NCBI GenBank assembly: GCA_020621965.1
Contig: JAHRYV010000033.1
Span: 1 to 33,695, forward strand
Reading direction: 5' to 3'
DNA length: 33,695 nt
Source: Curvibacter sp.
GTDB taxonomy: Bacteria > Pseudomonadota > Gammaproteobacteria > Burkholderiales > Burkholderiaceae_C
Below are positions 4,668-18,694 of the stretch, piece after piece. Each line of letters opens with the position of its first letter. The first letter of the stretch is position 1. A model generated the notes under the pieces. That model saw only the letters and a program-made list of their open reading frames with translations, did no database searches and was not told the origin of the DNA. The position numbers were made by a program, and so were the translations under genes.

Positions 4668-4778
4668 CAGGCTCAGCCCAATGCAATTGCGAGACAGTTG
4701 AATGAGAGGCCGCGCAAGACGCTCGGCTTTCAAACGCCCGCTGAGATGTTCAGCGAATGTGTTACATCGACCGGTTGA
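4668..4778 (+). pseudogene. IS30-family transposase, C-terminal remnant
   Basis: The plus-strand frame reads QAQPNAIARQLNERPRKTLG followed by FQTPAEMFSECVTSTG and a stop. This is the highly conserved C-terminus of IS30-family transposases (LN-RPRKTLGF-TP-E). Only about 36 residues remain; the catalytic DDE core is absent because the sequence upstream is the MFS gene. The element is dead. It marks the left edge of the region with atypical composition and suggests past insertion-sequence activity at this junction. Confidence 0.8.
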
Positions 4779-5313
4779 ATCCGCCACCCGTTGCGGTCTT
4801 TCGCACCATTGCGGCCGATGACTGCAATGCAGCGAATGCTGCCCGTCACGACGGGATCCGGAACGCGCGGTATCTGCCACATTGCGGTCATCCATGCCAA
4901 CCACAAGCAACTTGAACTAGCGGCCGGAATTAGAGGTGCAGCTAACGAAGTCGGATTTCAGGCTGATTTCGTCAACCCAAATGTCTGTTGCTCCAGGTGG
5001 CCAGTAGGAGGTGCCGATCCCCTGCGGTCCTGCCCACCAATTCACTGAGTTACGCTCTACTGAGCAAACAGACTCTCTGTTTGCTGCCTTGAAATCTTCT
5101 ATATCGGACGACTTGCCACGAGTCCCGTCTGTTGATAGTGCCGGAGCCAATAGGCAGGCAAGTAAGTCGCGAAGCGGACCGGAGCAGATTCAACAAGCAT
5201 TCTGGAGGGCGCACGGGACCACGATGTCTGCCGCCTCGCATTGATCTCGCGTCGCACGCGGCGGATTTTCCAAGGCTGACGCGTTGATCTCCGAACGGTT
5301 TTGACCCGCAAGA
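4779..5313. other. Gene-poor junction between IS30 remnant and ATPase gene
   Basis: No confident gene is seen in these 535 bases. Short open frames exist on both strands. The least implausible is 4917-5150 on the minus strand (77 codons, ending in YWPPGATDIWVDEISLKSD and a Cys-containing tail), which could be the remnant of a secreted protein. It has no ribosome site or recognisable family. The stretch TTGCGGTC/TTGCGGCC recurs near 4792, 4811 and 4883, which looks like decayed insertion-element DNA. Confidence 0.4.
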
Positions 5314-7722
5314 TTAGGCAGTCGTACGTTGCGAGGCAAGCTCCGTCCGATAGATTTCGGGCGCACGAAGAAGGCTTAAGATCTTTGACGCCGCTGTTCT
5401 TACTTCTGGATTGACGTCGAGCAGGCGCTCATCACCGTAAAGATAAGCCTCGTAGGCCGCCCTCAAAGGCCAGTGCCTGTCGCTGGCCCCCGACTCATCT
5501 AGCATACGAATCAGCAGATCGCCCCAGTTTTGTCGTGACGCTTCTCTCAGTAGAAGTAGCAGAAAGCCACGGTAGGTTTCGAAGATTTGTTCATCGTTGC
5601 TTTGGAATACAGCGCTTACGAGGGATAACGCCGTGCCACGATCGCCCTGGCGTATCGAGATAAGCAAGCGCATGAGAGCTTGTCCATGCGGAGGGTGTCG
5701 AGCTATCAGTTCCTCATTGAGTTGCAGCGGTAACGACGCTTGCTCGCTGAAGTAACTCAAGACTGTAAAGTTGCTTAATGCAACGAAGTCCTTTGAATCG
5801 ATGTCGAGACAACGCTTATATAAGCGCAATGCACGATTGAAGTCTTCTAGGATGTACCCAGCAAAGAAGGCGCTCGCTTGCAGACTCTCGGTATCAGCCC
5901 TTGGGGCCAATTTGGCGGCGCGCCGGTAGTAGCTCTCGGCTTCAACGAGTTTCCCCTCTCCCGTGAACAGATCGCCCAAGGCGATCGCGGCTAGATAGAA
6001 GTTCGGCTTAAGTTGCAGGCACGCCAAGTAAATGTTCTTGGCCTCCTCGAACTCACCTGTTTCAGCAAGAGCCATGCCGAGCATGTAGTGCGAGGGGAGA
6101 TCCCGTGGCTTGGCGTCTATTGCATGCCTAAACGCTTCTATTGCACCGCCTGGATTTGCGAGGTCTCCCGCGCGCACGGCTCCGAGGTTGAACCAAGCTG
6201 AAAAATTGGTGGGCTCTTGGGCCAGCGCAGAGAGAAAGGCCGACTCGGCTTCTTTCGCACGTTTAAGGTGTTGTCGAAGTAGATTGCCGTGTCGAATCCA
6301 CTCGGCAGCTGTCTGTGGTCGCGGGACGTCCGAAGGATCAACGATCTCGTCCAGACTTCGTCCGAGAGAGTGTGCGTACTTCTCGAACTCGTCGCGCGCA
6401 TGGTTCTTGAGCACTGCGCGCCAGCCTTCGTCATCGATCGCGTCGCTCAGCGCCAGCAAAAACTGGCCGCCGTCAGCGCCCAGTTCACCATTGGAACTCA
6501 CCAGCGACTTGGCGCGTTCGACTAGCTGAGCGTGCGTGTAGAAACTGCGAAGGAAGACGGTAAGCCAGCGCAGACGACTGCGCTGCCGTCTTGGCCCGTG
6601 CCGCATCAGATACCAAATGTTGAAAAAGCGTTCGCTAATCTGGTAGGCCGATTTGGTGGTCTTCGACACCGCGACCTTCTCGATCACGCCCTCCTTTTGC
6701 AGGCGATCTAGTTGGGAAGACACCAACGTGACCTCAAGGAATGTGGCCGCCGCCACTTCTGCTGCTAGCACCGGGTTCCATGCCAGCGCGACGGCATCAA
6801 GCACTACCCGCGCCTGCGCGGGAAGGTCTTCGACGCGTGCTTTGTATAGGACGGTAACTTGATCCAGAAGTCTTTCCAGGTCACTGAAAACATCGCCTCC
6901 GGAGTCCAGCTCGAGAAGCATGTACAGCAGGGTAAGCGTGCGCGGATTGCCGCCTGTCAGATCATGCAGGGTCCGAATGCGAGCTGCGTCCTTGTCGACC
7001 AGACGCAGGACCTTCGCTCCTTCCTCGCCCCGCGCGAGGGCGAGACTACGAAGACACGCGATCAGCTCTTCCTTGGTCAGCCGGTCTAGATTGATGATTT
7101 GAAAGTACGGGCCAAACTCCGATGCGGGATCCATGATGGCCTCAACATTGGTGGCTGAGCCCCCAGCGATGACAATCCCACCTGGCGTTCGAACGTGTTC
7201 AAGCAGTGCGGCTTGCTCCTTCTTGAGACCGGCGAAGATTAGATCGATGTTGTCTAGGAGCAGCAGTGGACGGCGTTTCTCCTTGTCGATCCATTGGTTG
7301 AAGAGCGCTAGGCTAGCGCCGGATTCCGAAGATAGCGCGGCGACATCGCGGTCAAGTTGATCCGCCTTGGCGTGCTGGCCACTACGGTCGAACCAATCTC
7401 CCAGGGCGTCAAGGCAGTTAGCCCAGAACACGTACATGCTATGCACGTTGTACTGCTCTTCGCGAAAACTCAGAGGAATAAGCACCTTCGCCAAGCGCTC
7501 GTCGGTCATCGCCGCGAGCGCCAGCCGGCGAAGCATGCTTGTCTTCCCCATCCCGCGCTGGCCCACGATCAGAAGATGCTTGGCCACGCTGCGCGGTGTG
7601 ATCTCTGCCAATTGGCCAATCAGTCGGGTTGCGACGTCTTGGCGAGCCACGAAGCCTCGCAGGAAGTCCTCGTCGCTCAAGGACGCAGGGTTGTAGACGG
7701 AAAGATTCAAAAGCTCGCTCAT
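5314..7722 (-). CDS. AAA/STAND-type ATPase with C-terminal TPR-like repeats
   Basis: An 802-residue protein. Residues 22-60 (FVARQDVATRLIGQLAEI, then LLIVGQRGMGKTS) give a Walker A loop at 54-61. LLLLDNID (153-160) is Walker B. AGGSA and GGNPRTLTLLY are the later ATPase motifs, the GGNPR being the GxP element typical of STAND/ORC-like ATPases. A winged-helix-like stretch follows (about 310-380). Residues from about 480 onward hold tandem helical pairs such as FSAWFNLGAVRAGDLANPG, PSHYMLGMALAETGEFEEA and ALGDLFTGEGKLVEAESYYR, which fit tetratricopeptide repeats. The ATG at 7722 has a GGGGA stretch about 4 bases upstream and is preferred to an upstream in-frame start at 7752. STAND ATPases with repeat sensors often act in signalling or phage defence. 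It is divergent from the Ubl operon, so a functional link is suggested but not shown. Confidence 0.82.
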   Translation of the reverse strand: MSELLNLSVYNPASLSDEDFLRGFVARQDVATRLIGQLAEITPRSVAKHLLIVGQRGMGKTSMLRRLALAAMTDERLAKVLIPLSFREEQYNVHSMYVFWANCLDALGDWFDRSGQHAKADQLDRDVAALSSESGASLALFNQWIDKEKRRPLLLLDNIDLIFAGLKKEQAALLEHVRTPGGIVIAGGSATNVEAIMDPASEFGPYFQIINLDRLTKEELIACLRSLALARGEEGAKVLRLVDKDAARIRTLHDLTGGNPRTLTLLYMLLELDSGGDVFSDLERLLDQVTVLYKARVEDLPAQARVVLDAVALAWNPVLAAEVAAATFLEVTLVSSQLDRLQKEGVIEKVAVSKTTKSAYQISERFFNIWYLMRHGPRRQRSRLRWLTVFLRSFYTHAQLVERAKSLVSSNGELGADGGQFLLALSDAIDDEGWRAVLKNHARDEFEKYAHSLGRSLDEIVDPSDVPRPQTAAEWIRHGNLLRQHLKRAKEAESAFLSALAQEPTNFSAWFNLGAVRAGDLANPGGAIEAFRHAIDAKPRDLPSHYMLGMALAETGEFEEAKNIYLACLQLKPNFYLAAIALGDLFTGEGKLVEAESYYRRAAKLAPRADTESLQASAFFAGYILEDFNRALRLYKRCLDIDSKDFVALSNFTVLSYFSEQASLPLQLNEELIARHPPHGQALMRLLISIRQGDRGTALSLVSAVFQSNDEQIFETYRGFLLLLLREASRQNWGDLLIRMLDESGASDRHWPLRAAYEAYLYGDERLLDVNPEVRTAASKILSLLRAPEIYRTELASQRTTA

Positions 7723-7981
7723 AGATCCCCACGATACGCGACGCGGCCGCATGCCAGCATGGCGCGACGAAACATAGTTGTTATATTACAACATTACATT
7801 AAAACAATACCGTTTTAAAACAGTCTTGTTGTGGTATATTTCTCGTCAGTCCAATGCGAAACGCCTGCAGTGCCTTCGTCCAGTTCCAAGTTGCAGTAGT
7901 AAGGGGCTGAGGCGCATCAGCGATAGGCCATAGGGCGGTAATTGCGACAGCTAGTTAACCGATTTTCGAAAGGGGATGACC
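7723..7981. promoter_or_regulatory. AT-rich divergent promoter/operator region with palindromes
   Basis: This is the intergenic region between the ATPase and the Ubl operon. It contains GTTGT-N6-ACAAC at 7777-7792, TTAAAAC-N6-GTTTTAA at 7799-7818, and the perfect palindrome GTTTTAAAAC at 7812-7821, all within 45 bases. TATATT at 7835-7840 is a possible -10 element for the plus strand, but no good -35 is seen. AT content here is much higher than in the genes around it. The symmetric sites could bind a repressor controlling both directions. No regulator gene is next to it. Confidence 0.5.
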
Positions 7982-8146
7982 ATGAGCAAGATGTTGAAGC
8001 CGGGTACGCCAGCGCCGAAGTCCGGGCAGTACAAGAACCAGGGCACCGGAAATGAGGTGACCGGGGTGAAAGGCAAGCCTTTGCCCCCGACGCCCAGGCC
8101 GGGCCAAGCCTATACGCTGGTGGATCCCAGCAAGCACAAACGCTGA
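7982..8146 (+). CDS. Small basic YjzC-like protein, first gene of the Ubl operon
   Basis: A 54-residue protein beginning MSKMLKPGTPAPKSGQY and ending GQAYTLVDPSKHKR, rich in Pro, Gly and Lys. The KPGTPAP-SGQY start followed by a basic tail resembles small YjzC-like proteins of unknown function; this match is from memory and moderate. A strong AAAGGGG ribosome site lies 6 bases before the ATG at 7982. An in-frame ATG at 7976 lies too close to that site. It sits 223 bases upstream of the Ubl gene on the same strand. It may be an operon member, a substrate or an unrelated cargo gene; nothing in it resembles an enzyme. Confidence 0.7.
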   Translation: MSKMLKPGTPAPKSGQYKNQGTGNEVTGVKGKPLPPTPRPGQAYTLVDPSKHKR

Positions 8147-8191
8147 CTCGAGCGAGTCTAGCCTAGTGTTGCCAGGAGAACGGAGGGCTGA

Positions 8192-8360
8192 ATGACGAGC
8201 TGGAAATAGAAAACGGCCGAGAACCGAAGTCCTCGACCGCTGGGTGTACGTAGCTGACGCCACGCACGGTTGGCGCCTGCATTATGTTGGCTACTCACCC
8301 TCGCAGTCAATGGATAACTTTGCCCGACAAGGCCAAGCGGGCGTAATCCAATGTGAGTAA
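8192..8360 (+). pseudogene. Frameshifted small ORF just upstream of the Ubl gene
   Basis: An ATG at 8192 has an excellent GGAGGG ribosome site at 8182-8187 but runs into TAG after five codons (M-T-S-W-K). Dropping one A from the AAA at 8204-8206 opens a 55-residue frame to the TAA at 8358-8360. That frame contains RWVYVADATHGWRLHYVGYS and PSQSMDNF, which looks like folded protein. Its stop lies 8 bases before the Ubl start, as expected for an operon member. It is either a disrupted gene, an assembly error, or a site of programmed +1 frameshifting at AAA-TAG. I do not recognise the family. Confidence 0.5.
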
Positions 8361-8368
8361 AAACCAAC

Positions 8369-8677
8369 ATGGAAAATGCGATTCAGGACGAAAAGGGCGT
8401 CCCTAAAACAACCCTTGTTTTGCGCGTGAAATACGCGCCTGTCAAACAGCCAATGGTGCAGCCGGGTACTGACGGCAACACAACTCTGGCGCAGGTAAAA
8501 GTCCTTGCGCTCGCCTATTTCGGGCTCACCGAAGGTGAGATCCCGGGCGGGAGCAAGACCTATGTCCTGTCCCACGACGGTGTTGAGCAGACGGACTTGA
8601 CTGTCAAGCTCGACAGCTTGGCCGATCACGGCCATCAAGTCGAGCTGCTGCTCTTGGAGCGGTTCATCCAAGGCTAG
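8369..8677 (+). CDS. Ubiquitin-like beta-grasp protein with C-terminal glycine
   Basis: A 102-residue protein. The order strand-strand (LVLRVKYAPVKQPMVQP), helix (TLAQVKVLALAYFG), then strands KTYVLSHDG, LTVKLDSL and QVELLLLERFIQG matches the ubiquitin-like beta-grasp fold. The chain ends in Gly102, the residue through which a Ubl is adenylated and joined to a target. It therefore needs no trimming of a tail. It is followed 5 bases later by the E2-like gene and then by JAB and E1-like genes, which is decisive for the assignment. Its role is taken to be the modifier of the conjugation system, comparable to BilA, although many BilA proteins have two Ubl domains and this has one. The ribosome site is weak, so translation may be coupled to the small ORF just upstream. 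Confidence 0.82.
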   Translation: MENAIQDEKGVPKTTLVLRVKYAPVKQPMVQPGTDGNTTLAQVKVLALAYFGLTEGEIPGGSKTYVLSHDGVEQTDLTVKLDSLADHGHQVELLLLERFIQG

Positions 8678-8682
8678 GCGAC

Positions 8683-9126
8683 ATGGCAACTGAGTTCGAT
8701 CTGATGCTGTTTGACCAGCACCTTGAAGCCGCACTCGAGTCGCCCGCAGCAAAGCGTTGGAACCTCGAGAGGGACCCAAGTGTTCCTCTCGGGGTTCTTT
8801 GCGTGATGCACCCGCGCACCGTACCGACCGAGTTGTTTAAAGCGCGATTGCGCTGGACAGACTACTCCAAACCGCCGTCATTGAAGTTCATCAGCATTGA
8901 AACGGGCTCAGAAACTGACGCACAAGCATGGCCCAACATTGAAGGTAGTCGTGCCACGTCATTTTTCCTATGCGCACCTTGGACGCAGGAAGGAAATTCT
9001 CATCATCCTGAGTGGGCGACGTCACCTGCGGCTCGCTATCCGAATCCAGAGGATCCAGTGGAGTTTGCTTTAACGCAACTCCAACACCTATTCGATAACA
9101 CCTATCAAGGACGGGGAACGCCATGA
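8683..9126 (+). CDS. E2-like (UBC-fold) conjugating protein
   Basis: A 147-residue protein. A helix (about 8-27) is followed by a beta-rich part with PPSLKFISIET (64-74) and AWPNIEGSR (82-90). This is laid out like the PP-v-F and HPNI regions of E2 enzymes. The segment SFFLCAPWTQEG follows, with C97 at the position of the catalytic cysteine of a UBC fold; C40 is the only other cysteine. HPEW (109-112) and a C-terminal helix follow. The usual eukaryotic HPN triad is not intact. It would accept the Ubl from the E1 as a thioester and pass it to a target. The stop overlaps the JAB start (ATGA at 9123-9126), so the two are translationally coupled. Comparable to BilB and other bacterial E2-like families. 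Confidence 0.75.
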   Translation: MATEFDLMLFDQHLEAALESPAAKRWNLERDPSVPLGVLCVMHPRTVPTELFKARLRWTDYSKPPSLKFISIETGSETDAQAWPNIEGSRATSFFLCAPWTQEGNSHHPEWATSPAARYPNPEDPVEFALTQLQHLFDNTYQGRGTP

Positions 9127-9626
9127 GGATTTGGGACCTTCCGCACGATTTACTGATCAAGTCGGTCGAACACATGCAGCCTTACGGAAAGCGTGGCCAT
9201 GAAGGACTGGCATTGTGGTTTGGCAACGAAGTCGACAACATAGTGGCCATCTCCCATCTCGTTGTGCCGTATGGGCCGGGACTTAGAACGCACCCGCTGC
9301 ATCTGAGTCTCTCTATGCGAGCGATGGAGCGCATTACGAATTTGACCGAGGAGTTGGATTGTTACTGGGCGGGGCAGATACACAGCCATCCAGGGACTAT
9401 GGTCGAACTGTCTGAGGTAGACGAGAGAATGGGCATTCACGTACAGGATTACCTGTCGTTCGTCTGTCCGTACTACGCCCAACGCGAGACAAGCGAAATT
9501 TCAGAGTTTGGAGTGCACACGTACGATGGTGGCGCGTACCGACGAGTCTCAGCAACAGAAGTTGCTCGTCGTATCGTACTAAGCAATCGCAGCGTGCAAC
9601 TGGTTCCAGTGGAGGTCCTTCAATGA
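9123..9626 (+). CDS. JAB/JAMM (Mov34/MPN-like) deubiquitinase-like metalloprotease
   Basis: A 167-residue single-domain protein with a complete JAMM zinc site: Glu27 in HEGLALWFG, His87 and His89 in GQIHSHPG, and Asp100 in LSEVDE, ten residues after the second His. This is the E-x(n)-H-x-H-x10-D arrangement of zinc isopeptidases such as Rpn11 and bacterial Cap3/BilD. It is expected to cleave the bond after the Ubl C-terminal glycine. Because the Ubl already ends in Gly, its task here is more likely removing Ubl from targets than maturing a precursor. Both ends overlap neighbours by ATGA, with the E2 before it and the E1 after it. Confidence 0.9.
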   Translation: MRIWDLPHDLLIKSVEHMQPYGKRGHEGLALWFGNEVDNIVAISHLVVPYGPGLRTHPLHLSLSMRAMERITNLTEELDCYWAGQIHSHPGTMVELSEVDERMGIHVQDYLSFVCPYYAQRETSEISEFGVHTYDGGAYRRVSATEVARRIVLSNRSVQLVPVEVLQ

Positions 9627-11179
9627 AGCACGCGACTGACAGAAAGATGGCGGCAAGCCGCCCGATTGGCGTCGCCCAAGGGTTGGGCGCAAAGGATTTA
9701 GACCAGGCGACGGTCTTCTCGAGAATAGCCATCCTTACCGGCGAGAAGGACGCACTTGGAACACGCAATGGTCGCTGGTGTTTCATCAGCGCCCTGAGGC
9801 TGTTGAGCCGAGTCGTTGGAAATCTGCAAGTAGTTCTGCCAGCCAACCTTGCCGAATTTCGGTCCGAGGTTGGTGAATTGGTCCCCCAACTTTGGTCTCA
9901 AGGGCGAGTGGACCTAGTTGAGATGGACGAAGCGTGTTGGGGAGAGGCGACGGCGATTTTGAACGTCGGACATCAGGTCAGAGCGGGTTATCCTTGGACA
10001 TCCATTCTCTCGAATGGCTGGGTCGCACGATGTACATCCGGAACGACACCAATATCTGCGGATTGCGACCAAGCGAATCCCATAGCTGCAATGCTTGCAG
10101 CATCTTTGGGTGTCACAGAGGTATTCAAACGCGTATACGGCGTGCCCGTTGAGAGAGCTGCGCTACTTGATTGCTGTGAGTTCTCACTGTTTGAGTTTAG
10201 TCAGACGCCTCGGGGTCTCGGGCCGATACTGCCCGCGCAGGTTCAGATTCCGAACACCCTGCTACTTGGAGCGGGTGCAATTGGAAACGCGATCGCGTTG
10301 CTGATTTCGCAGCTGCAATTGACCGGAAATCTGACCGTAATCGATAAGCAAGTGTTTGGAGATGAGAATTTTGGCACCTGCGTATTGCTGGACAAGGAAT
10401 CTGCTATCGGCCGGTCGAAGGCAGTTGAGATTGCGGCCTGGTTGGAGAGAACAAACTCCCACATTGATGCAAAGGGGATAGAGTCTGATATCGAGAGCGT
10501 GTTGTCCGGCGACATTCTGCAAGAGAAATTGATTGATGTCGTTATCAATGGATTGGACGATGTTGCTGCGCGCCATGCGGTTCAAAAGCTTTGGCCCAAC
10601 ATCTTGGTCGACGGCGCAATTAACTCGATTGGCAGTAGCGTTGTTACCCACTCAATGGCCCATCGTGAATTTTCTTGTTTGCGCTGCACATTTGAGTTAC
10701 CGAACAAGGACCACCTGAAAGAACAGTCAGAGGCAACAGGTCTGTCACGCGCGTCGTTAGAAGGAGACCAAAATCGTCCAATCTCAGATGCAGACATAGA
10801 TGCGGCAGATGAAGCAAGTCAGCCGTGGCTTCGAGAGCAACAACGCCTTGGCCGTACGATCTGTTCTACCATGCAAGTCGCGCAGATTGAAGGGCTTGGG
10901 CTCAGGCTGAAGAAAGGTTTTTTGCCATCTGTGCCATTCATTGCCTCAGCGGCGGCGGCATTGGTCATGGCGCAAATGTTGCGAAATCTTCTATGGCCAG
11001 ATGAAGAATTTGTCCATCAGTTTCAGTTTCCGAATATGTTTGATGGAGTCGAGAGCGGCCACCGCTTCGCGCGATTTGCATCAAAAAATTGTGAGTGCAT
11101 GCGACATTCAATCTTCATCGATAAAGTCCTCGCAAAAAGGGCGTCGCACTTGAGCGTCCAACTACTTCACAGTCAATAG
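9623..11179 (+). CDS. E1-like Ubl-activating enzyme (ThiF family, two Rossmann halves)
   Basis: A 518-residue protein. The C-terminal half (about 205-518) is an active ThiF/E1 domain. It has the nucleotide loop GAGAIG (216-221), the acidic VIDKQVFGDENFG stretch, KAVEIAAWLE, and VINGLDDVAARHAVQ around the catalytic Asp. Possible zinc ligands are CLRC (352, 355) and CEC (490, 492). Cys414 in GRTICSTMQ, followed by PFIASAAAALVMAQML, is the likely thioester cysteine. The N-terminal half (FSRIAILTGEKDALGTRNGR, then PIAAMLAASLGVTEVFKRV) looks like a degenerate Rossmann half without a glycine loop, giving a pseudodimeric E1. The Arg usually found in the NLNRQ motif is replaced (NFGTC). It starts inside the JAB stop (ATGA at 9623-9626). 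It should adenylate the Ubl Gly102 and load the E2. Confidence 0.88.
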   Translation: MKHATDRKMAASRPIGVAQGLGAKDLDQATVFSRIAILTGEKDALGTRNGRWCFISALRLLSRVVGNLQVVLPANLAEFRSEVGELVPQLWSQGRVDLVEMDEACWGEATAILNVGHQVRAGYPWTSILSNGWVARCTSGTTPISADCDQANPIAAMLAASLGVTEVFKRVYGVPVERAALLDCCEFSLFEFSQTPRGLGPILPAQVQIPNTLLLGAGAIGNAIALLISQLQLTGNLTVIDKQVFGDENFGTCVLLDKESAIGRSKAVEIAAWLERTNSHIDAKGIESDIESVLSGDILQEKLIDVVINGLDDVAARHAVQKLWPNILVDGAINSIGSSVVTHSMAHREFSCLRCTFELPNKDHLKEQSEATGLSRASLEGDQNRPISDADIDAADEASQPWLREQQRLGRTICSTMQVAQIEGLGLRLKKGFLPSVPFIASAAAALVMAQMLRNLLWPDEEFVHQFQFPNMFDGVESGHRFARFASKNCECMRHSIFIDKVLAKRASHLSVQLLHSQ

Positions 11180-11180
11180 C

Positions 11181-11414
11181 TTGCGTGTGAATCGAGTGGG
11201 CCAGGGACTACCGGGCGTACTTCGGCGCACGGTTGACTCGGCTATTGAAAACCAAGACCTTCCGTCACTAGCCGTCCTAGCAGCGACGTCAGAGTTAGTC
11301 AGAACGTTAATCGACCGCATTGCCAGGCCGTCGAGTGAATGCAATGTGTCAGAAGCGCCAGCTTCCGCAGAGCAACAGTTGCCGTTCGATGGGCTGACTA
11401 GGCTCAATCTCTGA
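11181..11414 (+). CDS. Possible last small gene of the Ubl operon
   Basis: An open frame beginning one base after the E1 stop, with TTG at 11181 or GTG at 11187, coding for 75-77 residues. The product is largely helical (AIENQDLPSLAVLAATSELV, then RTLIDRIARP) with a polar tail ending LPFDGLTRLNL. No ribosome site is seen, so translation would depend on reinitiation from the E1 gene. A 9-bp inverted repeat starts at its stop codon. No family is recognised. The non-ATG start and lack of homology knowledge keep the confidence modest. Confidence 0.45.
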   Translation: MRVNRVGQGLPGVLRRTVDSAIENQDLPSLAVLAATSELVRTLIDRIARPSSECNVSEAPASAEQQLPFDGLTRLNL

Positions 11415-11446
11415 GATGTCTGCTTTGGTCGGCTTTACAGACATCT
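11414..11446 (+). other. 9-bp inverted repeat at the end of the Ubl operon
   Basis: AGATGTCTG (11414-11422) pairs perfectly with CAGACATCT (11438-11446) across a 15-base loop and starts on the last base of the small ORF stop codon. No T-run follows, so it is at best a weak or factor-assisted terminator. Confidence 0.4.
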
Positions 11447-11768
11447 AGGGGAAGACGCGAGCAATGACCGGATCGGCGTTGGCTGTCCCCAAGCCGCCAA
11501 TGTTGAGCGGCAGCAACCAGCCTGAAGCTGTCTGTCGGTCGGCAATCCTGACCGTCGGCTCGTGGCCGAGATCGGCCATGCACGGGGGCGGACGGCTCCC
11601 TGCAAGTTAATGGAAAGTTCAGCCTCTTTTCCCGCGCTGGTCCCAACTCAAACATAGCGGCTTGCGCGCACGATCCGCTACAGTTCAAGATCATTATCTG
11701 AGTAGCTGTGCCGTACGTCCGGTGTGACACCGTTGCAGCGCCCGGCCATTCGAGGAAGACACGTTTTC
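11447..11768. other. Right junction of the island, no gene seen
   Basis: These 322 bases hold no convincing gene. Composition moves back from island-like to the GC-rich core. GTCGGTCGGCAATCC and GACCGTCGGC (about 11534-11557) look like decayed repeated DNA. No tRNA, integrase or clear direct repeat to the left junction was found by eye. Confidence 0.4.
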
Positions 11769-12701
11769 ATGAGTACCCTGATCTATACCCACCAAGCCTG
11801 TTTCGACCACAAGCCCGGCCCGCACCACCCCGAATCCCCCGAGCGGCTGGAAGCCGTGCTGGCCGCCCTGAAGACGCCGGCGTTTGCCGACGCCGTCTGG
11901 CGCGACGCGCCCTTGGGAACCTTCGAGCAGGTGCTGCACGTCCACACGCCCGACTATGTGGAAACCGTGCAGGCCGTGTCGCCCATCAGCGGCTACCGCG
12001 CCCTGGACGCGGGCGACACCATCATGTCGCCCGGCACGTTGGAGGCGGTGCTGCGCTGTGTGGGCGCGGCCTGTGCCGGGGTGGATGACGTGGTGAAGCA
12101 GGAAGCCAGGAACGTCTTCTGTGCCACGCGCCCCTGCGGCCACCATGCCGAGGCGGGTGAGGCCATGGGTTTTTGCGTCTTCAACCAGGCGGCCATTGCC
12201 GCGCTGCATGCGCGCGCGCAGCACGGCCTGCAGCGGGTGGCGGTGGTGGACTTTGACGTGCACCACGGCAACGGCACGCAGCACAGCTTCTGGGACGACC
12301 CGGACCTGTTCTACGGTTCCTGCCACCAGGGGCAGTTCTACCCGGGCACCGGTGCGCGCAACGAGACGGGCGTGGCCCACAACATCGTCAACGTGCCCTT
12401 TCCGCGCGGCACGGGTTCGGCCGCCTTCCGCGCGGCCATGTCGGATGTGCTACTGCCCGCGCTGCGCGAGTTCGCGCCGGAGCTGCTCATCATCTCGGCC
12501 GGTTTCGACGCCCACCACCTGGACCCGCTGGGCGGGCTGAAGTTCACCGACGAGGACTACCACTGGATCACGCGCGAGCTGATGCGGGTGGCCGACGAGA
12601 CGGCCCAGGGCCGGGTGGTGTCGGTGCTCGAAGGCGGCTACAGCCTGGAAGGGCTGGCCAGCGGCACCGCGGCGCATGTGCGCGCGCTCATGGGGCGCTA
12701 G
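11769..12701 (+). CDS. Histone deacetylase family (AcuC/HDAC-like) amidohydrolase
   Basis: A 310-residue zinc deacetylase of the usual bacterial size. Family markers in order are HHPESPERL (19-27), RPCGHHAE with His125/His126 as the catalytic pair, DFDVHHGNGTQ with zinc ligands Asp163 and His165, and SAGFDAHHLDPLGG with the third ligand Asp247. A Tyr is present in the final EGGYSLEGLA segment. It removes acetyl or similar groups from lysine or polyamines; the bacterial substrate cannot be told. The ATG at 11769, preceded by GAGGAAG, is chosen over an upstream in-frame start at 11724 because the family fold begins with STLIYTH. Its stop overlaps the convergent SemiSWEET stop. Confidence 0.93.
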   Translation: MSTLIYTHQACFDHKPGPHHPESPERLEAVLAALKTPAFADAVWRDAPLGTFEQVLHVHTPDYVETVQAVSPISGYRALDAGDTIMSPGTLEAVLRCVGAACAGVDDVVKQEARNVFCATRPCGHHAEAGEAMGFCVFNQAAIAALHARAQHGLQRVAVVDFDVHHGNGTQHSFWDDPDLFYGSCHQGQFYPGTGARNETGVAHNIVNVPFPRGTGSAAFRAAMSDVLLPALREFAPELLIISAGFDAHHLDPLGGLKFTDEDYHWITRELMRVADETAQGRVVSVLEGGYSLEGLASGTAAHVRALMGR

Positions 12702-13269: not shown

Positions 13270-14805
13270 ATGAGATTCCTGCGAACGATTCTGGCAATGC
13301 TGGTGTTGCTGGCCGTCACCCTGCCGGCCACGGGCGCGGCGCTTCATGTCGGCTCCAAGCGTTTCACCGAGTCCTACATCCTGGCCGAGATCGTCCAGCA
13401 GACGGCCCGCACAACGGGCGAAGCCACGGTGACACACGTGCCCGGGCTGGGCAACACGGCGATCCTGCTCAGCGCCTTGCGGGCGGGCCGGATCGACGTC
13501 TACCCGGAGTACACGGGCACCATCGCCCGCGAAATTCTTCATCTCGACCATGTGCCGCCCCTGGCGGAGCTCAACGCCGCGCTGGCGCCGCTGGGGCTGC
13601 GGGCTTCCGTGCCGCTTGGCTTCAACAATAGCTACGCGCTGGCGATGCGCGCCCAGGACGCCGCGGCGCGGAACATCACACGCCTCTCCGACCTGAAGCA
13701 TCATCCGGAATTGCGCTTCGGGCTGTCGCAGGAGTTCATCGGCCGCGTCGACGGCTGGGTGGGACTGAAGCAGACCTATGCCTTGCCTGCGGCCACGCCG
13801 CGCGGGCTGGACCACGGGCTGGCCTACGAGGCACTCGCGCAGCACCAGGTCGACGTCATCGACATCTATTCGACCGACGCCAAGATCGGAAGGTACGGGG
13901 TGCGGGTGCTCGCGGACGACGCGCACTATTTCCCGCGTTACGACGCGGTGCTGCTGCACAAGGTCGATCTGCCGACGCGTCTGCCGCGGAGCTGGGCGGC
14001 CATCGCCAGCCTGGAAGGCCGCATCGGCGAGGCCGCCATGCGCCGCATGAACGCGGCGGCGGAACTGGAGCGCACGACGTTCCAGGACGTCGCCGCCGGG
14101 TTTTTGGCCGGCACCGCGCGAGACCCGGCGCCGCCCCGCGCCGATGGCGCCGCGGCCGGCAGTTTCTGGGACAAACTTGCCGGCCCGGATCTGGGGCGCC
14201 TGACGCTGGAACATCTGGCCCTGGTGTTCCTGTCGCTGGCGGGGAGTGTGGTGGTCGGTGTGCCGCTGGGCCTGCTGGCGGCGCGGCTGGCGGCGGCCGA
14301 AGCCGTCATCCTGGGGGTTACCGGCGTCCTGCAGACCATCCCCTCACTTGCCCTGCTGGCCGTCCTGATCCCCGTCACGGGCAGCATAGGCCTGGTTCCG
14401 GCCTTCATTGCCCTGGCCGTGTATGCGCTGTTGCCCATCGTGCGCAATACCCACACCGCATTGCGCCAGATTCCGCCCGGGATGACGCAGGCGGCACAGG
14501 CCTTGGGCCTGACGCCGTCCATGACGCTGCGCCTGATCGAACTGCCGCTGGCGCGCCGCACCATCATGGCGGGCATCAAGACGGCGGCGGTGATCAATGT
14601 GGGCACCGCCACGATTGCCGCGTTCATCGGCGCGGGCGGTTATGGCGAACGCATCGTCACGGGCCTGGCCTTGAACGACAACGCCACCTTGCTGGCCGGC
14701 GCGATCCCCGTGGCCGTGCTGGCGCTGGCGATAGAGGCCGCGTTCATGCTGGGGGAACGCGGTCTGACGCCCAAGGCGCTGCGTCAGATCACACGCAGCC
14801 GGTAG
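13270..14805 (+). CDS. Osmoprotectant ABC transporter, fused substrate-binding protein and permease
   Basis: A 511-residue protein. A signal-like hydrophobic N-terminus (1-23, ending PATGAA) leads into an OpuAC/OsmF-type binding domain (VGSKRFTESYILAEIVQQ, GLGNTAILLSALRAGRIDVYPEYTG, split here for length, up to about residue 290). The second part (about 305-500) is a BPD-type permease with helices such as LALVFLSLAGSVVVGVPLG. It also has the EAA-like loop QAAQALGLTPSMTLRLIELP that contacts an ATPase. It should import glycine betaine, choline or related quaternary amines. No ATP-binding gene is adjacent in this window, so the ATPase must be elsewhere or shared. GAGGGA lies upstream of the ATG. 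Confidence 0.87.
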   Translation: MRFLRTILAMLVLLAVTLPATGAALHVGSKRFTESYILAEIVQQTARTTGEATVTHVPGLGNTAILLSALRAGRIDVYPEYTGTIAREILHLDHVPPLAELNAALAPLGLRASVPLGFNNSYALAMRAQDAAARNITRLSDLKHHPELRFGLSQEFIGRVDGWVGLKQTYALPAATPRGLDHGLAYEALAQHQVDVIDIYSTDAKIGRYGVRVLADDAHYFPRYDAVLLHKVDLPTRLPRSWAAIASLEGRIGEAAMRRMNAAAELERTTFQDVAAGFLAGTARDPAPPRADGAAAGSFWDKLAGPDLGRLTLEHLALVFLSLAGSVVVGVPLGLLAARLAAAEAVILGVTGVLQTIPSLALLAVLIPVTGSIGLVPAFIALAVYALLPIVRNTHTALRQIPPGMTQAAQALGLTPSMTLRLIELPLARRTIMAGIKTAAVINVGTATIAAFIGAGGYGERIVTGLALNDNATLLAGAIPVAVLALAIEAAFMLGERGLTPKALRQITRSR

Positions 14806-15082
14806 GCTTGGGCAGGCCGCCGTATTTGGTGATCGGTTTCATCGGCCCGGTCATCCAGCGTTTGAAGATATCGCTCTGATCCTCGCCCAGGTACTTGGCG
14901 AACTTGCGGATCGGGGGCACGCTGCCGAATTCCTCGAAATACTCGCGGGCCTTCAGGATCTGGGTCCATTTGGTGTCATCGAGTTCGTAACCGTCGACTT
15001 CGGCCATGGCCAGGCCGATTTCCTGGGTCCATGCGTTCATGTCGGTCAGATAACCATCGCCATCGCGCTCGGGAATATCCAT
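14789..15082 (-). CDS. tusE: TusE/DsrC-family sulfur carrier protein
   Basis: A 97-residue protein of exact family length. Markers are DGYLTDMNAWTQEIGLAMA near the N-terminus and the C-terminal arm GLPKPTGCV with Cys96 as the penultimate residue. It lacks the second arm cysteine of dissimilatory DsrC (the position in MKPITKYGGLPK holds no Cys). The role as a persulfide relay in tRNA 2-thiouridine synthesis (TusE) is therefore likelier than sulfur oxidation. TusBCD partners are not in the window. An AAGGAG site precedes the ATG. Its end overlaps the convergent transporter gene by 17 bases. Confidence 0.88.
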   Translation of the reverse strand: MDIPERDGDGYLTDMNAWTQEIGLAMAEVDGYELDDTKWTQILKAREYFEEFGSVPPIRKFAKYLGEDQSDIFKRWMTGPMKPITKYGGLPKPTGCV

Positions 15083-15248
15083 GTCACGGCTCCTTTCTGG
15101 GTTCGGGTTGAAAAAGGGTCATGCCGGCGGCAACGCCGCCTAGCGTGACACAAGGGGGGCGAGGGCCACTGTAATGGGGAATGCGGCCCTGGACACCAAG
15201 GAGCGCAATGCCCCTGGTCGCAGCAGCGTTGTTGCGGCCGGCGCCGTT

Positions 15249-15719
15249 TCAGTCCACCGCGGCGATCAGGTCGAGCTCGACCGCCGCGTCCTTGGGCAAC
15301 TGCAGCACGCCGACCGAGGTGCGTGTGTGCACCCCGGCTTCTCCCAGTACGCGGAACAGCAGCTCCGAGGCGCCGTCCGCCACTTCGCTGAGTTGCGTGA
15401 AGCCGTCCGCCGCCTGCACGAACACCGTCACGCGCAGGATGCGGCTCACCGGCGCCAGCGAGCCGAGGGACTGGCGCAGCAGGGCCAGCGCGCGCATGAC
15501 GCAGATCCGGGCCGCCAGCTGGGCCTGCGCCAGCGTCACATCGCGGCCCACGCGCCCGGTCACCACCATCTGGCTGCCCACGCGCGGCACCTGGCCGCTC
15601 ACAAAGACCTGGCCGCCATGGCGCACGACGGGCGTGTAGTTGCCGCCCTTCAGGAGCTCGCCGTTGAAGTCATAACCCAGCTCCCGGGCCACGGCCTGGA
15701 ATTCGCGCTCGCGGGACAT
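15249..15719 (-). CDS. RidA/YjgF-family protein
   Basis: A 156-residue member of the RidA/Rid family, with FVSGQVPRVG, the central AALCV-like region reading AQLAARICVMRALALLRQSL, ILRVTVFVQAADGF, and HTRTSVGVLQLPKDAAVELD near the end. The Arg of the TRTSVGV motif corresponds to the conserved Arg that binds carboxylates in enamine/imine deaminases. It is longer than RidA itself and resembles the YjgH/Rid subgroups, whose substrates are unclear. Its start (ATG at 15719) lies 13 bases after the GST stop, so the two form an operon. Confidence 0.87.
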   Translation of the reverse strand: MSREREFQAVARELGYDFNGELLKGGNYTPVVRHGGQVFVSGQVPRVGSQMVVTGRVGRDVTLAQAQLAARICVMRALALLRQSLGSLAPVSRILRVTVFVQAADGFTQLSEVADGASELLFRVLGEAGVHTRTSVGVLQLPKDAAVELDLIAAVD

Positions 15720-15732
15720 CGGCACCACCCGC

Positions 15733-16437
15733 TCAGTCGCGCGCCGGGATGGCCAGGCCGCGCACCACGGCGGGCCGGGCCACGAAGGCCGCCAGCACGC
15801 GCGTGACCTCGGGGAAGTCCTGGATGCCCACCAGCTCGCCCGCCTTGTAGCGTTCGATCAGGTTGCGCACCCAGGGGAAGACGGCGATGTCGGCGATGGT
15901 GTAGTCGTCGCCCATGATCCAGGCGCGGCCCCGCAGGCGCTGGTTCAGCACGCCCAGCAGGCGGCGCGACTCGGCCACGTAGCGTTCACGCGGGCGTTTG
16001 TCGTCAAAGTCCTTGCCGCCAAAGATGGTGAAGAAACCGACCTGGCCGAACATGGGGCCGATGCCGCCCATCTGGAACATCAGCCATTGCAGGGTTTCGT
16101 ACTTGCCGGCGTCGTCCCGGGGCAGGAACTTGCCGGTCTTGCCGGCGAGATACACCAGGATGGCGCCGGACTCGAACAGCGCCAACGGCTGGCCGCCCGG
16201 GCCGTTGGGGTCGATGATGGCCGGGATCTTGTTGTTGGGGTTGAGCGAGAGGAATTCCGGCGAGAGCTGGTCCTCGGATTCGAAGTTCACCAGATGCGCC
16301 TCGTAGGGCAGGCCGGTCTCTTCCAGCATGATCGAGACCTTGACGCCGTTGGGCGTGGGCAGCGAATAGAGCTGCAGCCGGTGCGGGTGCCGGGCGGGCC
16401 ATTTGCGGGTGATGGGGAAGTCGGCGAGTGTGGTCAT
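15733..16437 (-). CDS. Glutathione S-transferase, YfcG/Ure2p-like
   Basis: A 234-residue GST. The N-terminal thioredoxin-like half begins after about 20 residues (LQLYSLPTPNGVKVSIMLEE) and has NPNNKIPAIIDP with the cis-Pro and ALFESGAILVYLA that binds the glutathione gamma-glutamyl group. The C-terminal helical half includes RAWIMGDDYTIADIAVFPW, the N-capping motif of GSTs. The TPNG-K pattern places it near the Nu-class YfcG/YghU enzymes, which show disulfide-bond reductase activity. The RidA-family gene follows directly. Confidence 0.92.
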   Translation of the reverse strand: MTTLADFPITRKWPARHPHRLQLYSLPTPNGVKVSIMLEETGLPYEAHLVNFESEDQLSPEFLSLNPNNKIPAIIDPNGPGGQPLALFESGAILVYLAGKTGKFLPRDDAGKYETLQWLMFQMGGIGPMFGQVGFFTIFGGKDFDDKRPRERYVAESRRLLGVLNQRLRGRAWIMGDDYTIADIAVFPWVRNLIERYKAGELVGIQDFPEVTRVLAAFVARPAVVRGLAIPARD

Positions 16438-16516
16438 GACAAGGTGTGAGGCGTGAAAGTGGCAATGGCATGCACTTTAGCCCAGGCACGCGGCCCGTGC
16501 TGCTGCCGGCCAGCGC

Positions 16517-18694
16517 TCAGATGCGGCTGCGCCGCAGGCGCAAGGCGTTGCCGATCACCGACACCGAACTCAGGCTCATGGCCAGGGCCGCGATCAGGGG
16601 CGACAGCAGCCAGCCGGTCCAGGGGTAGAGCACGCCGGCGGCGATGGGCACGCCCATGGCGTTGTACAGAAAGGCAAACACCAGGTTCTGCTTCATATTG
16701 CCCACCGTGGCCTGCGACAGCGCGCGCGCGATGGCGATGCCGCGCAGGTCGCCCTTGACCAGGGTGATCTGCGCGCTGTTCATCGCCACGTCGGTGCCGG
16801 TGCCCATGGCCACGCCCACGTCGGCCTGGGCCAGCGCGGGCGCGTCGTTGATGCCGTCGCCCGCCATCGCCACCACGCGCCCTTGCTGCTGCAGCCGCTG
16901 CACCAGCAGCAGCTTGTCCGCCGGTTTCACCTCGCCATGCACCTCGTCGATGCCCAGCCGGGCACCCACCGCCCGGGCCGTGGTCAGGCCGTCGCCGGTG
17001 GCCATGATGATGCGCAGGCCGCTGGCTTTGAGGGTGGCCAGGGCTTCGGGGGTGCTCGGCTTGACGGGGTCGGACACGGCCAGCAGGCCGGCCAGCCGGC
17101 CGTCGACCGCCAGGTGCATCACGCTGGCGCCTTCGGCGCGCAAGGCCTCGGCCTGCGCCATCAGCGGGGCGAGCGGGGCGCCGATCTGCTCCATCAGCGT
17201 GGTGTTGCCCAGGGCCAGCTCCAGCCCGGCCACCTGCCCACGCACGCCGATGCCGGAGCCGGACTCGAAGTGTTCCGCCTTGCTCAGTTCCAGGCCACGC
17301 TCGCGCGCGGCACGCACGATGGCCTCGGCCAGCGGGTGTTCGCTGCCCTGGTCCAGGCTGGCGGCCAGGCGCAGCACCTGGTCGGCCGTGAAGCCGGCGG
17401 CGGGCACCACGCGGTCGAAGGCCGGGCGGCCTTCGGTCAGGGTGCCGGTCTTGTCGATGAGCAGGGTGTCGACCTGGCGCAGTTTCTCGATGGCCGCCGC
17501 ATCACGGAACAGCACGCCGTGCGTGGCGCCGCGGCCCGTGGCCACCATGATGGACATCGGGGTGGCCAGGCCCAGGGCGCAGGGGCAGGCGATGATGAGC
17601 ACGGCCACGGCGTTGATCAGGCCGTAGACCCAGCGCGGCTCGGGGCCGAACAGGCCCCAGGCGAAGAAGGTCAGCAAGGCGATGGTCACCACGGTGACGA
17701 CGAAATAACCGGCCACCACGTCGGCCAGGCGCTGCATGGGCGCGCGGGAGCGCTGGGCCTGGGCCACCATCTGCACGATCTGCGCCAGCATGGTGGCCGC
17801 GCCCACGCGCTGCGAGCGCATCACCAGCGCGCCGCCGGTGTTGAGCGTGGCGCCGATCAACGGGTCGCCCACGCGCTTGGTGACCGGCATGGGTTCGCCG
17901 GTGAGCATGGATTCGTCCACCGCGCTGCTGCCTTCGATCACCACGCCGTCCACCGGCACTTTCTCGCCGGGGCGCACGCGCAGCACGTCGTCCACATGCA
18001 CGTGCGACAAGGGCACGTCTTCCTCGGTGCCGTCGGCGCGGATGCGGCGCGCGGTCTTGGGCGCCAGACCCAGCAGCGACTTGATGGCCGCCGAGGTCTG
18101 CGAACGGGCCTTGAGCTCCAGCACCTGACCCAGCAGGGTCAGCGAGATGATCACCGCCGCCGCCTCGAAGTACACCGCCACGCGGCCCATGGAGATGAAG
18201 GAGGCCGGGAACACCTGCGGGGTCACGGTGGCCACCACGCTGTAGACGAAGGCCGCGCCCGTGCCCAGCCCGATCAGCGTCCACATGTTCGGGCTGCGAT
18301 TCACCACCGACTGCCAGCCGCGCACGAAGAAGGGCCAGCCGGCCCACAGGGCGATGGGCAGGGACAGCACCAGCTCAACCCAGCTTTGCACGCCCATGCT
18401 CATCCACTGCAGGCGATGGCCGAACATGGCCAGCACGAAGATGGCGGCCGTCAGCGGCAGGCTCCACCAGAAACGGCGCTGAAAGTCGCGCAGCTCGGGG
18501 TTGTCGTCGTCCAGGCTGGGCAGCACGGGCTCCAGGGTCATGCCGCATTTGGGGCAGCTGCCCGGATGGTCCTGGCGGATCTCCGGGTGCATGGGGCAGG
18601 TGTAGACAGTGCCCGCGGGCGGCGGGGGCTCTGTGGGTGTGGGCGGCATCGCCGGCGGATGATGGCCGTGATGCGGATGTGATTCCATGTCCAT
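16517..18694 (-). CDS. Copper-type P1B ATPase
   Basis: A 725-residue heavy-metal transporting P-type ATPase. The N-terminus is His-rich and carries a zinc-ribbon-like metal site, [10 protein letters not shown] with SCPKCGM (Cys33, Cys47, Cys50), in place of the usual CXXC heavy-metal-associated domain. Later motifs are the TGE phosphatase loop (MLTGEPMPV), the ion-binding [11 protein letters not shown], the phosphorylated Asp in [19 protein letters not shown], and [20 protein letters not shown]. The CPC plus late-helix Asn/Tyr/Met/Ser context fits Cu(I) export across the inner membrane. The start ATG at 18694 lies 10 bases after the stop of the secreted-protein gene, showing a three-gene operon. 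Confidence 0.93.

Follow-up and report, generated by a model that had tools for sequence, protein, structure and literature searches.

Type II CBASS (Cap2/Cap3) systems carry a CD-NTase gene and a fused E2-E1 protein. The Bil systems are closer to the locus described here, and their solved BilABCD proteins (PDB 8tyx-8tz0) presumably come from Ensifer aridi. Sections of a review describe BilA as having two ISG15-like domains and as a precursor that BilC processes to a free Gly; they also give Cys138, Glu144, His146 and His151 as the CEHH motif of BilB, and Cys417 as the thioester Cys of BilD (PMC11354881). Two domains are not universal in BilA, because the solved BilA (8tyx) is of single-domain length.

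The stretch of DNA analyzed here, hereafter the window, comprises 33,695 nucleotides from Curvibacter sp. Four plus-strand ORFs encoding a ubiquitin-like protein (Ubl), an E2, a JAB protein and an E1 follow one another with junctions of +5, -4 and -4 bases, confirming the tight packing noted in an earlier sequence-only reading. That reading had also proposed a search for the same gene set elsewhere. The search recovered the Ubl-E2-JAB-E1 order at ten loci including the window, from Pseudomonadota, Deinococcota, Actinomycetota and one haloarchaeon, and the arrangement is therefore not due to chance. A truncated relative (L017) carries E1 only, and no E1 relatives were found in phages and viral contigs. 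In E1 trees, the window falls into one group with Deinococcus, Janibacter and five proteobacterial loci, and both the Bil locus L028 and classical BilD lie outside it. The operon is well supported as a Bil-type Ubl conjugation operon that is distant from known Bil kits. Here the sequence-only reading is supported on the kind of system and not on what sets it apart. It took gene order as a departure from BilABCD, but L028, a close match to the solved Bil proteins in its E1, E2 and Ubl, and the classical loci L063 and L064 all run Ubl-E2-JAB-E1 (the JAB genes of L063 and L064 were recognized by eye). A single-domain Ubl is no departure either, since solved BilA (8tyx) is 98 residues long, with the Ubl of L028 matching it along its length.

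The Ubl (8369..8677, + strand, 102 aa) is predicted to form a single β-grasp domain, as had been claimed (AlphaFold2 pLDDT 84.1, from 7 rows). Foldseek matched the model to archaeal ubiquitin 6fnn (2.6e-5) and BilA 8tyx (8.4e-4), and also to SUMO, FAT10 and ISG15. The protein is encoded with Gly102 already as its last residue (..FIQG*), unlike a BilA precursor that BilC must process. The JAB protein would therefore be unnecessary for maturation and would act as a deconjugase only. A Gln-Gly terminus was found in six of ten aligned Ubls, all from the window's group (window, L014, L015, L016, L025 and L011). The idea that only this group encodes a Ubl with a free Gly at its end was rejected, because both classical BilA proteins (L063, L064) also end in Gly.

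The E2 (8683..9126, + strand, 147 aa) gave a model with a pLDDT of 89.5 (AlphaFold2, from 8 rows) that matches UBC folds. The rows listed by Foldseek are by title UBC enzymes or complexes thereof (best E 9.7e-4), and solved BilB is absent among the 50 matches listed. Cys97 is invariant in 11/11 aligned E2s. Relative to the BilB CEHH motif, Cys97, Glu103 and His108 are present and the histidine at the His146 position is absent; the His108 column is not invariant in a second alignment of eight E2s. The PADLOC BilB model matches the E2 at 1.6e-4. A profile built without Bil references (A2) retrieved BilB from the PDB at only 0.077, and an unrelated enzyme ranked ahead of it (0.032); both are weak matches. 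Profiles A8 and A5 include L028, a near-copy of solved Bil, which makes the PDB searches run with them circular.

The JAB/JAMM isopeptidase candidate (9123..9626, + strand, 167 aa) has the Bil metal-site residues Glu27, His87, His89, Ser97 and Asp100, which are invariant in 12/12 sequences. It matches PADLOC BilC (5.8e-8), PDB BilC 8tyx (1.3e-9) and an AMSH-like protease (0.002).

The E1 (9623..11179, + strand, 518 aa) has an N-terminal half that aligns with BilD and a ThiF half (PF00899, 1.5e-14) with a GAGAIGN motif, in which Gly216, Gly218 and Gly221 are invariant in 13/13. Residues 36-363 align with 35-351 of BilD 8tyz (1.4e-12), and by alignment the protein has the inactive and active adenylation halves and Cys-bearing insert of a Bil E1. 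Cys414 is kept in 12 of the 13 aligned E1s, Natrinema being the exception, and shares its column with Cys417 of the L028 BilD; the alignment thus indicates Cys414 as the probable catalytic cysteine. Two further pairs, Cys352/Cys355 and Cys490/Cys492, are also present. The active-site residues assigned earlier to E2, JAB and E1 are accordingly retained among relatives. Against PADLOC BilD, the window E1 scores 80-89 bits (5.6e-26; best stretch 34-330 on 36-327 of 453), and the classical loci match nearly the whole model at 527 (L063) and 490 bits (L064). The L028 BilD, which is near solved BilD, scores only 54 bits. The window E1 also matches E1-E2 (Cap2-type) models weakly (2e-7), and the scanned ORFs surrounding it gave no CD-NTase match. 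Protein conjugation by the operon is likely.

The operon lies within a low-GC insert. Its E1 was found in 0/25 congeners. The insertion site is variable, with other content there in congeners, and horizontal acquisition of the cassette is the best explanation. At the left edge of the insert is a C-terminal fragment of an IS30-type transposase (4683..4775, + strand), which matches 389 plasmid records; among six matches listed, one is annotated as an IS30 family transposase. Two small ORFs flank the operon on the + strand. The upstream one (7982..8146, 54 aa) is YjzC-like (PF14168, E 0.097, under cut-off) and matches 36 plasmid records. The downstream one (11181..11414, 77 aa) starts with TTG, lacks a clear ribosome site, shows modest codon bias (z 2.7) and gave no family match; it is a doubtful gene. 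Using tblastn at E up to 1, no operon-adjacent counterpart of either was detected in the fetched relative flanks; the best hit (0.015) was a 23-residue match away from the operon in L028/L029. Both ORFs are probably outside the conjugation system. A divergent AAA_16/STAND-like ATPase with TPRs (5314..7752, - strand, 812 aa; TPR_8 9e-16; AAA_16 1.7e-6, under cut-off) likewise has no relative beside the relatives' operons, and the earlier inclusion of the small ORFs and ATPase as system parts is therefore not sustained. Inverted repeats occur at 7788-7830. Promoter- and terminator-like sites in the window were in no excess over shuffles, and Rfam (gathering scores) and tRNA scans of the window gave no match.

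The new observation is a recurrent adjacency of regulator genes whose family includes DNA-damage sensors. An HTH+M78 gene or pair adjoins five of the seven complete operons of the window's group, and one further operon adjoins STAS-wHTH/HATPase-like genes; neither kind of gene is adjacent to the window operon. All five M78 proteins beside operons contain HExxH. In G054 the operon-adjacent M78 protein is the genome's sole PF06114 match, whereas G082 has three such matches, its operon-adjacent protein among them. The HTH+M78 genes of L015 and L016 match PD-Lambda-2_B, not CapP, and that of L015 falls slightly short of Pfam cut-offs. Type I restriction, AbiD, integrase and Tn7-like genes also lie near the relatives' operons.

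We consider it probable that the locus is a horizontally acquired Bil-type conjugation cassette of a distinct group, likely serving defense. In this scheme, E1 would adenylate Gly102 of the Ubl, hold it as a thioester on Cys414, and hand it to Cys97 of E2, where His108 stands at the place of BilB His151. E2 could then link the Ubl to target lysines without an encoded E3, and JAB would strip it off again. In most relatives, the adjacent regulator, from families with some DNA-damage-responsive members, may turn the operon on; the window copy lacks one. The likely benefit is defense against phage or other mobile DNA, an inference to which the genomic setting lends some support. A broader reading, offered tentatively, is that the window's group constitutes a third type of Bil system, found in Pseudomonadota, Deinococcota and perhaps Actinomycetota. 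It would have a ready-to-use Ubl, a different E2 histidine arrangement, and interchangeable damage-sensing regulators gating expression (mostly HTH+M78, once STAS-wHTH with a kinase-like ATPase), the window's gate having been lost or swapped, perhaps for the STAND ATPase. The match of two among the five HTH+M78 genes to PD-Lambda-2_B instead of CapP makes this reading somewhat less probable.

The same regulators could point elsewhere. If DNA damage led to attachment of the Ubl to host proteins, regulating or protecting them, the operon would be a stress-response modifier rather than an anti-phage system. The neighboring gene families reportedly respond to DNA damage itself, and Bub operons with the same regulators are, according to PMC13373217, not shown to be phage-protective. 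The patchy distribution and the type I restriction, AbiD, integrase and Tn7-like neighbors suit a conflict system better, which leaves the stress modifier somewhat unlikely. We think it improbable that the divergent ATPase is a sensor replacing the missing regulator. It is placed on the side where most relatives have theirs, and on an Agrobacterium plasmid a relative of the ATPase is encoded divergently from an operon that includes a ThiF-family E1 (E1 profile 9.8e-12). That is the one E1-profile match at five ATPase-relative loci, however, with 0/5 for the JAB, E2 and Ubl profiles; in the window, 617 bases and the YjzC-like ORF separate ATPase from Ubl. Together with its absence beside relatives' operons, these counts do not support the ATPase as a fixed partner.

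Decay would account differently for the absent regulator: the operon may be a passenger with intact reading frames and no expression in its host, as the IS30 fragment at the border and the truncated L017 might suggest. All four genes are intact with every catalytic residue present, and we regard decay as slightly less probable than the ATPase sensor. Least credible is a sulfur-carrier pathway, in which a ThiS/MoaD-type protein works with a ThiF/MoeB-like enzyme plus a JAB protein and nothing is conjugated. The E1 does contain a ThiF domain, and JAB-Ubl-E1 sets work in siderophore sulfur transfer, according to portions of one report (PMC1779556). Yet the operon includes an E2 in which Cys and His are conserved, Cys414 is common to the E1 and BilD, no rhodanese or cofactor gene was found among the ORFs scanned, and curated ThiF and MoeB cut-offs are far from reached (41.8 vs 275.25 bits and 32.1 vs 266).

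As a Bil-type cassette, the operon would represent a compact ubiquitin-type cascade with a maturation-free modifier, in which JAB deconjugation is separable from processing. With a regulator recurring next to related operons, induction by damage or phage becomes cheaply testable, and the group enlarges the sample bearing on the pre-eukaryotic assembly of the E2 active site and E1 Cys domain.

Compared with solved-type Bil (L028), the window operon has the same gene order, single β-grasp Ubl, E1 Cys column and JAB metal residues. It differs in its E1, which is 20% identical to that of L028, in its E2, which reads C-x5-E-G-x3-H-x-E-W against C-x5-E-x-H-x4-H in solved-type BilB, and in its Ubl, which ends in Gly and not Gly-Ala. 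Classical PADLOC-type Bil (L063 in G124, L064 in G284) shares the gene order and a Gly-terminal Ubl, and the second half of classical BilA aligns with the window Ubl profile. Classical BilA is 161-163 aa, with two domains judged from length and the review's account (PMC11354881), whereas the window Ubl has one; classical BilD and the window E1 are distant in the tree and separated on the BilD model (490-527 vs 80-89 bits). By description, Bub operons are alike: they are bacterial and ubiquitination-like, and many adjoin CapW, CapH+CapP or CapK+CapS, according to PMC13373217. Type II CBASS Cap2/Cap3 resembles the window operon in E1, E2 and JAB chemistry and in the weak E1-E2 model matches; in contrast, the window encodes E1 and E2 as separate genes and carries its own Ubl.

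The four genes are as tightly packed as had been claimed: Ubl (8369-8677), E2 (8683-9126), JAB (9123-9626) and E1 (9623-11179), all on the forward strand, meet at junctions of +5, -4 and -4 bases. In family scans, PADLOC matched the E1 to BilD (5.6e-26), the JAB to BilC (5.8e-8) and the E2 to BilB (1.6e-4), with no match for the Ubl; Pfam found ThiF in the E1 (1.5e-14) and nothing in the Ubl or E2. Searches of solved structures paired the E1 with BilD (8tyz, 1.4e-12) and the JAB with BilC (8tyx, 1.3e-9); for the Ubl and E2, single-sequence searches gave no credible match. AlphaFold2 models of these two proteins, built on shallow alignments of 7 rows for the Ubl (pLDDT 84.1) and 8 rows for the E2 (pLDDT 89.5), agreed with the folds first proposed for them. 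With the Ubl model, 13 Foldseek matches fell below 0.001; these include archaeal ubiquitin, SUMO, FAT10, ISG15, BilA and ESX EccD ubiquitin-like domains. For the E2 model, the best 50 Foldseek rows were all UBC enzymes or complexes with one, as judged by title; a single E-value among them was below 0.001, and solved BilB was absent from these rows.

The proposed catalytic residues are also conserved. E2 Cys97 was invariant in all 11 aligned E2s, together with His108, Gly88 and Pro65, and Glu103 was nearly so; in a second alignment of eight E2s, Cys97, Glu103 and Gly88 were invariant and His108 was not. JAB Glu27, His87, His89, Asp100 and Ser97 were invariant in 12/12 sequences. The candidate E1 cysteine, Cys414, was kept in 12 of 13 rows (Cys352 and Cys355 in all 13), and shares an alignment column with Cys417 of the L028 E1, which matches 8tyz over its full length (1047.6 bits); a review numbers the BilD cysteine 417 (PMC11354881). 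The Natrinema E1 (L013, 5932-7365) has no Cys in this column and has another nearby; its thioester site may differ. The Ubl ends in Gly in the window and at L014, L015, L016, L025 and L011, in Gly-Ser-Arg at L012, in Gly-Ala at L028 and L026, and in a longer tail at L013.

A search for the same set elsewhere showed that ten of the 13 aligned E1 rows come from four-gene loci of identical order: the window, L014, L015, L016, L025, L011 (Deinococcus aetherius), L012 (Janibacter), L013, L026 and L028. The Ubl profile missed the Ubls of L026 and L028; the latter was confirmed as BilA, and the former is called from position and alignment. L017 carries a truncated E1 and nothing else of the operon; on L027, a contig of 3.35 kb, JAB and E1 are present. 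At L018, the E2, JAB and E1 were found by profile and a Ubl-like frame was judged by eye. This locus (8100-11242) is from a Thaumarchaeota MAG; the Gly of its Ubl-like frame is followed by a short tail, and its E1 joins L028 BilD in the tree with moderate support.

E1 matches at 1e-3 occurred in 10 of 100 relative genomes, the window's own included, and close ones (E <1e-100) in three (its own, G054 and G082), with none at 1e-3 in 25 congeners, several of which are incomplete drafts. Counting its own genome each time, the E1 was found in 4/399 genomes of the order (at 1e-20) and 3/398 of the phylum. Scanning genome contigs for the pattern yielded 43 candidates, of which 5 were confirmed; the L014 contig is identical to that in G054. 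Three plasmid records carry the E1 (Deinococcus aetherius, Janibacter melonis and Natrinema zhouii); no relatives were found in phages or viral contigs.

Across 5001-12000, each of the seven 1-kb steps has a GC content of 52-58%, against 62-72% in the remaining steps. The site beside a deacetylase-like gene (4670-11768) is variable, with different contents in three congeners (L051, L054 and L055); both flanks keep the window's arrangement in two of seven fetched congener regions. In congener G024, 1.3 kb separates the same MFS and deacetylase-like flanks, and an ORF within it has a HATPase match below threshold. G025 carries different genes over 7.6 kb at this site, and G004 has, next to its deacetylase-like gene, an unclassified ORF in which a Walker A motif was recognized by eye. 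A C-terminal IS30 transposase fragment (4683-4775) marks the left insert edge. Among related loci, type I restriction genes and PDC-S11 lie near L016, AbiD and Tn7-like TnsB, TniB and TniQ (14395-18301) near L014, an integrase near L015, and Tn7-like TnsD and TniQ (6891-9983) near the L017 remnant.

The window also encodes a divergent TPR ATPase (5314-7752, reverse strand). On Agrobacterium plasmid L066 (283-8192), a relative is encoded divergently from two genes with cyclase domains and an E1 of the ThiF family. At L071 (5537-10828) and L072 (2522-6590), relatives follow a smaller ATPase-like gene (by eye), which suggests a separate two-gene system. The YjzC-like 54-aa protein (7982-8146, forward strand) has matches on 36 plasmid records from several phyla.

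The E1 group that includes the window has seven complete operons (the window's own and those of L014, L015, L016, L025, L011 and L012), and in five of them an HTH+M78 gene or pair adjoins the Ubl gene. L014 has a pair (7584-8545), with HTH_VI (36 bits) and CapH (27) in one gene and CapP (26 bits) in the other. L015 (7292-8524, 468 bits, just below both Pfam cut-offs) and L016 (7244-8479, 465 bits) have fused proteins of PD-Lambda-2_B type; in the divergent fused proteins of L025 (7345-8409) and L011 (6161-7357), RmrA models score best, then CapP (54.5 and 58.6 bits). HExxH is intact in all five M78 proteins, and regulator and Ubl start lie ~170-360 bases apart (with the Ubl start picked by hand at L014 and L025). 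As a base rate, the one PF06114 match in G054 is the operon neighbor, and one of three in G082 lies beside the operon; the window genome has one, on a different contig. None of these regulators adjoins the window operon, where the divergent gene is the TPR ATPase. Janibacter L012 (5836-7315) has a divergent STAS-like winged-helix protein and a weakly HATPase-like protein, resembling CapS and CapK. Beyond the group, four loci were examined: divergent winged-helix genes occur at L013 and L018, and the single neighbor examined at each of L028 and L063 showed no regulator. One report states that CapH+CapP and CapK+CapS respond to DNA damage, and places capK+capS with five Bil operons (PMC13373217).

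The sequence-only reading had also set the operon apart from Bil by gene order and by its single-domain Ubl, and neither distinction survived. The order Ubl-E2-JAB-E1 recurs at L028 and at the classical Bil loci L063 and L064, where the JAB was picked out by motif, by eye; the L028 Ubl, ending Gly-Ala, is likewise of single-domain length. L028 matches solved Bil, presumably from Ensifer aridi, in E1, E2 and Ubl. Against PADLOC BilD, L063 reaches 527 bits and L064 490 bits, and their BilA proteins (161-163 aa, start codons chosen by hand) end in Gly. Midpoint-rooted E1 trees, with several long-branched rows, grouped the window with L014, L015, L016, L025 and L017 (99/99 and 99/98), and this clade with Deinococcus and Janibacter (100/98; 87/96 once L063 and L064 were added); the placement of Janibacter is uncertain. 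Profile A2, an E2 profile built without Bil references, matched the L028 and L018 E2s at 6.3e-7 over the N-terminal part only, stopping before the Cys. Matches to classical proteins were 8e-5 for the E2 profile (BilB), 2e-9 for the E1 profile (BilD) and 3.1e-6 for the Ubl profile (second half of BilA).

Protein conjugation is the likely activity of the operon, and its family and setting are the basis for inferring an anti-phage role. Among the matches listed from one library, no title or abstract concerned this group; a 2006 survey predicted operons of such kind generally, one type pairing a small Ubl that ends in Gly with a free-standing E2 that has its His downstream of the Cys (PMC1779556). 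The E2 motif reads C-x5-E-G-x3-H-x-E-W in the window, C-x5-E-x-H-x4-H at L028 and C-x5-E-G-H at the classical loci. Because the window E2 does not match the full CEHH motif of Bil, the operon is not strictly BilABCD; it would work in the manner of Bil and is a sister group to it.
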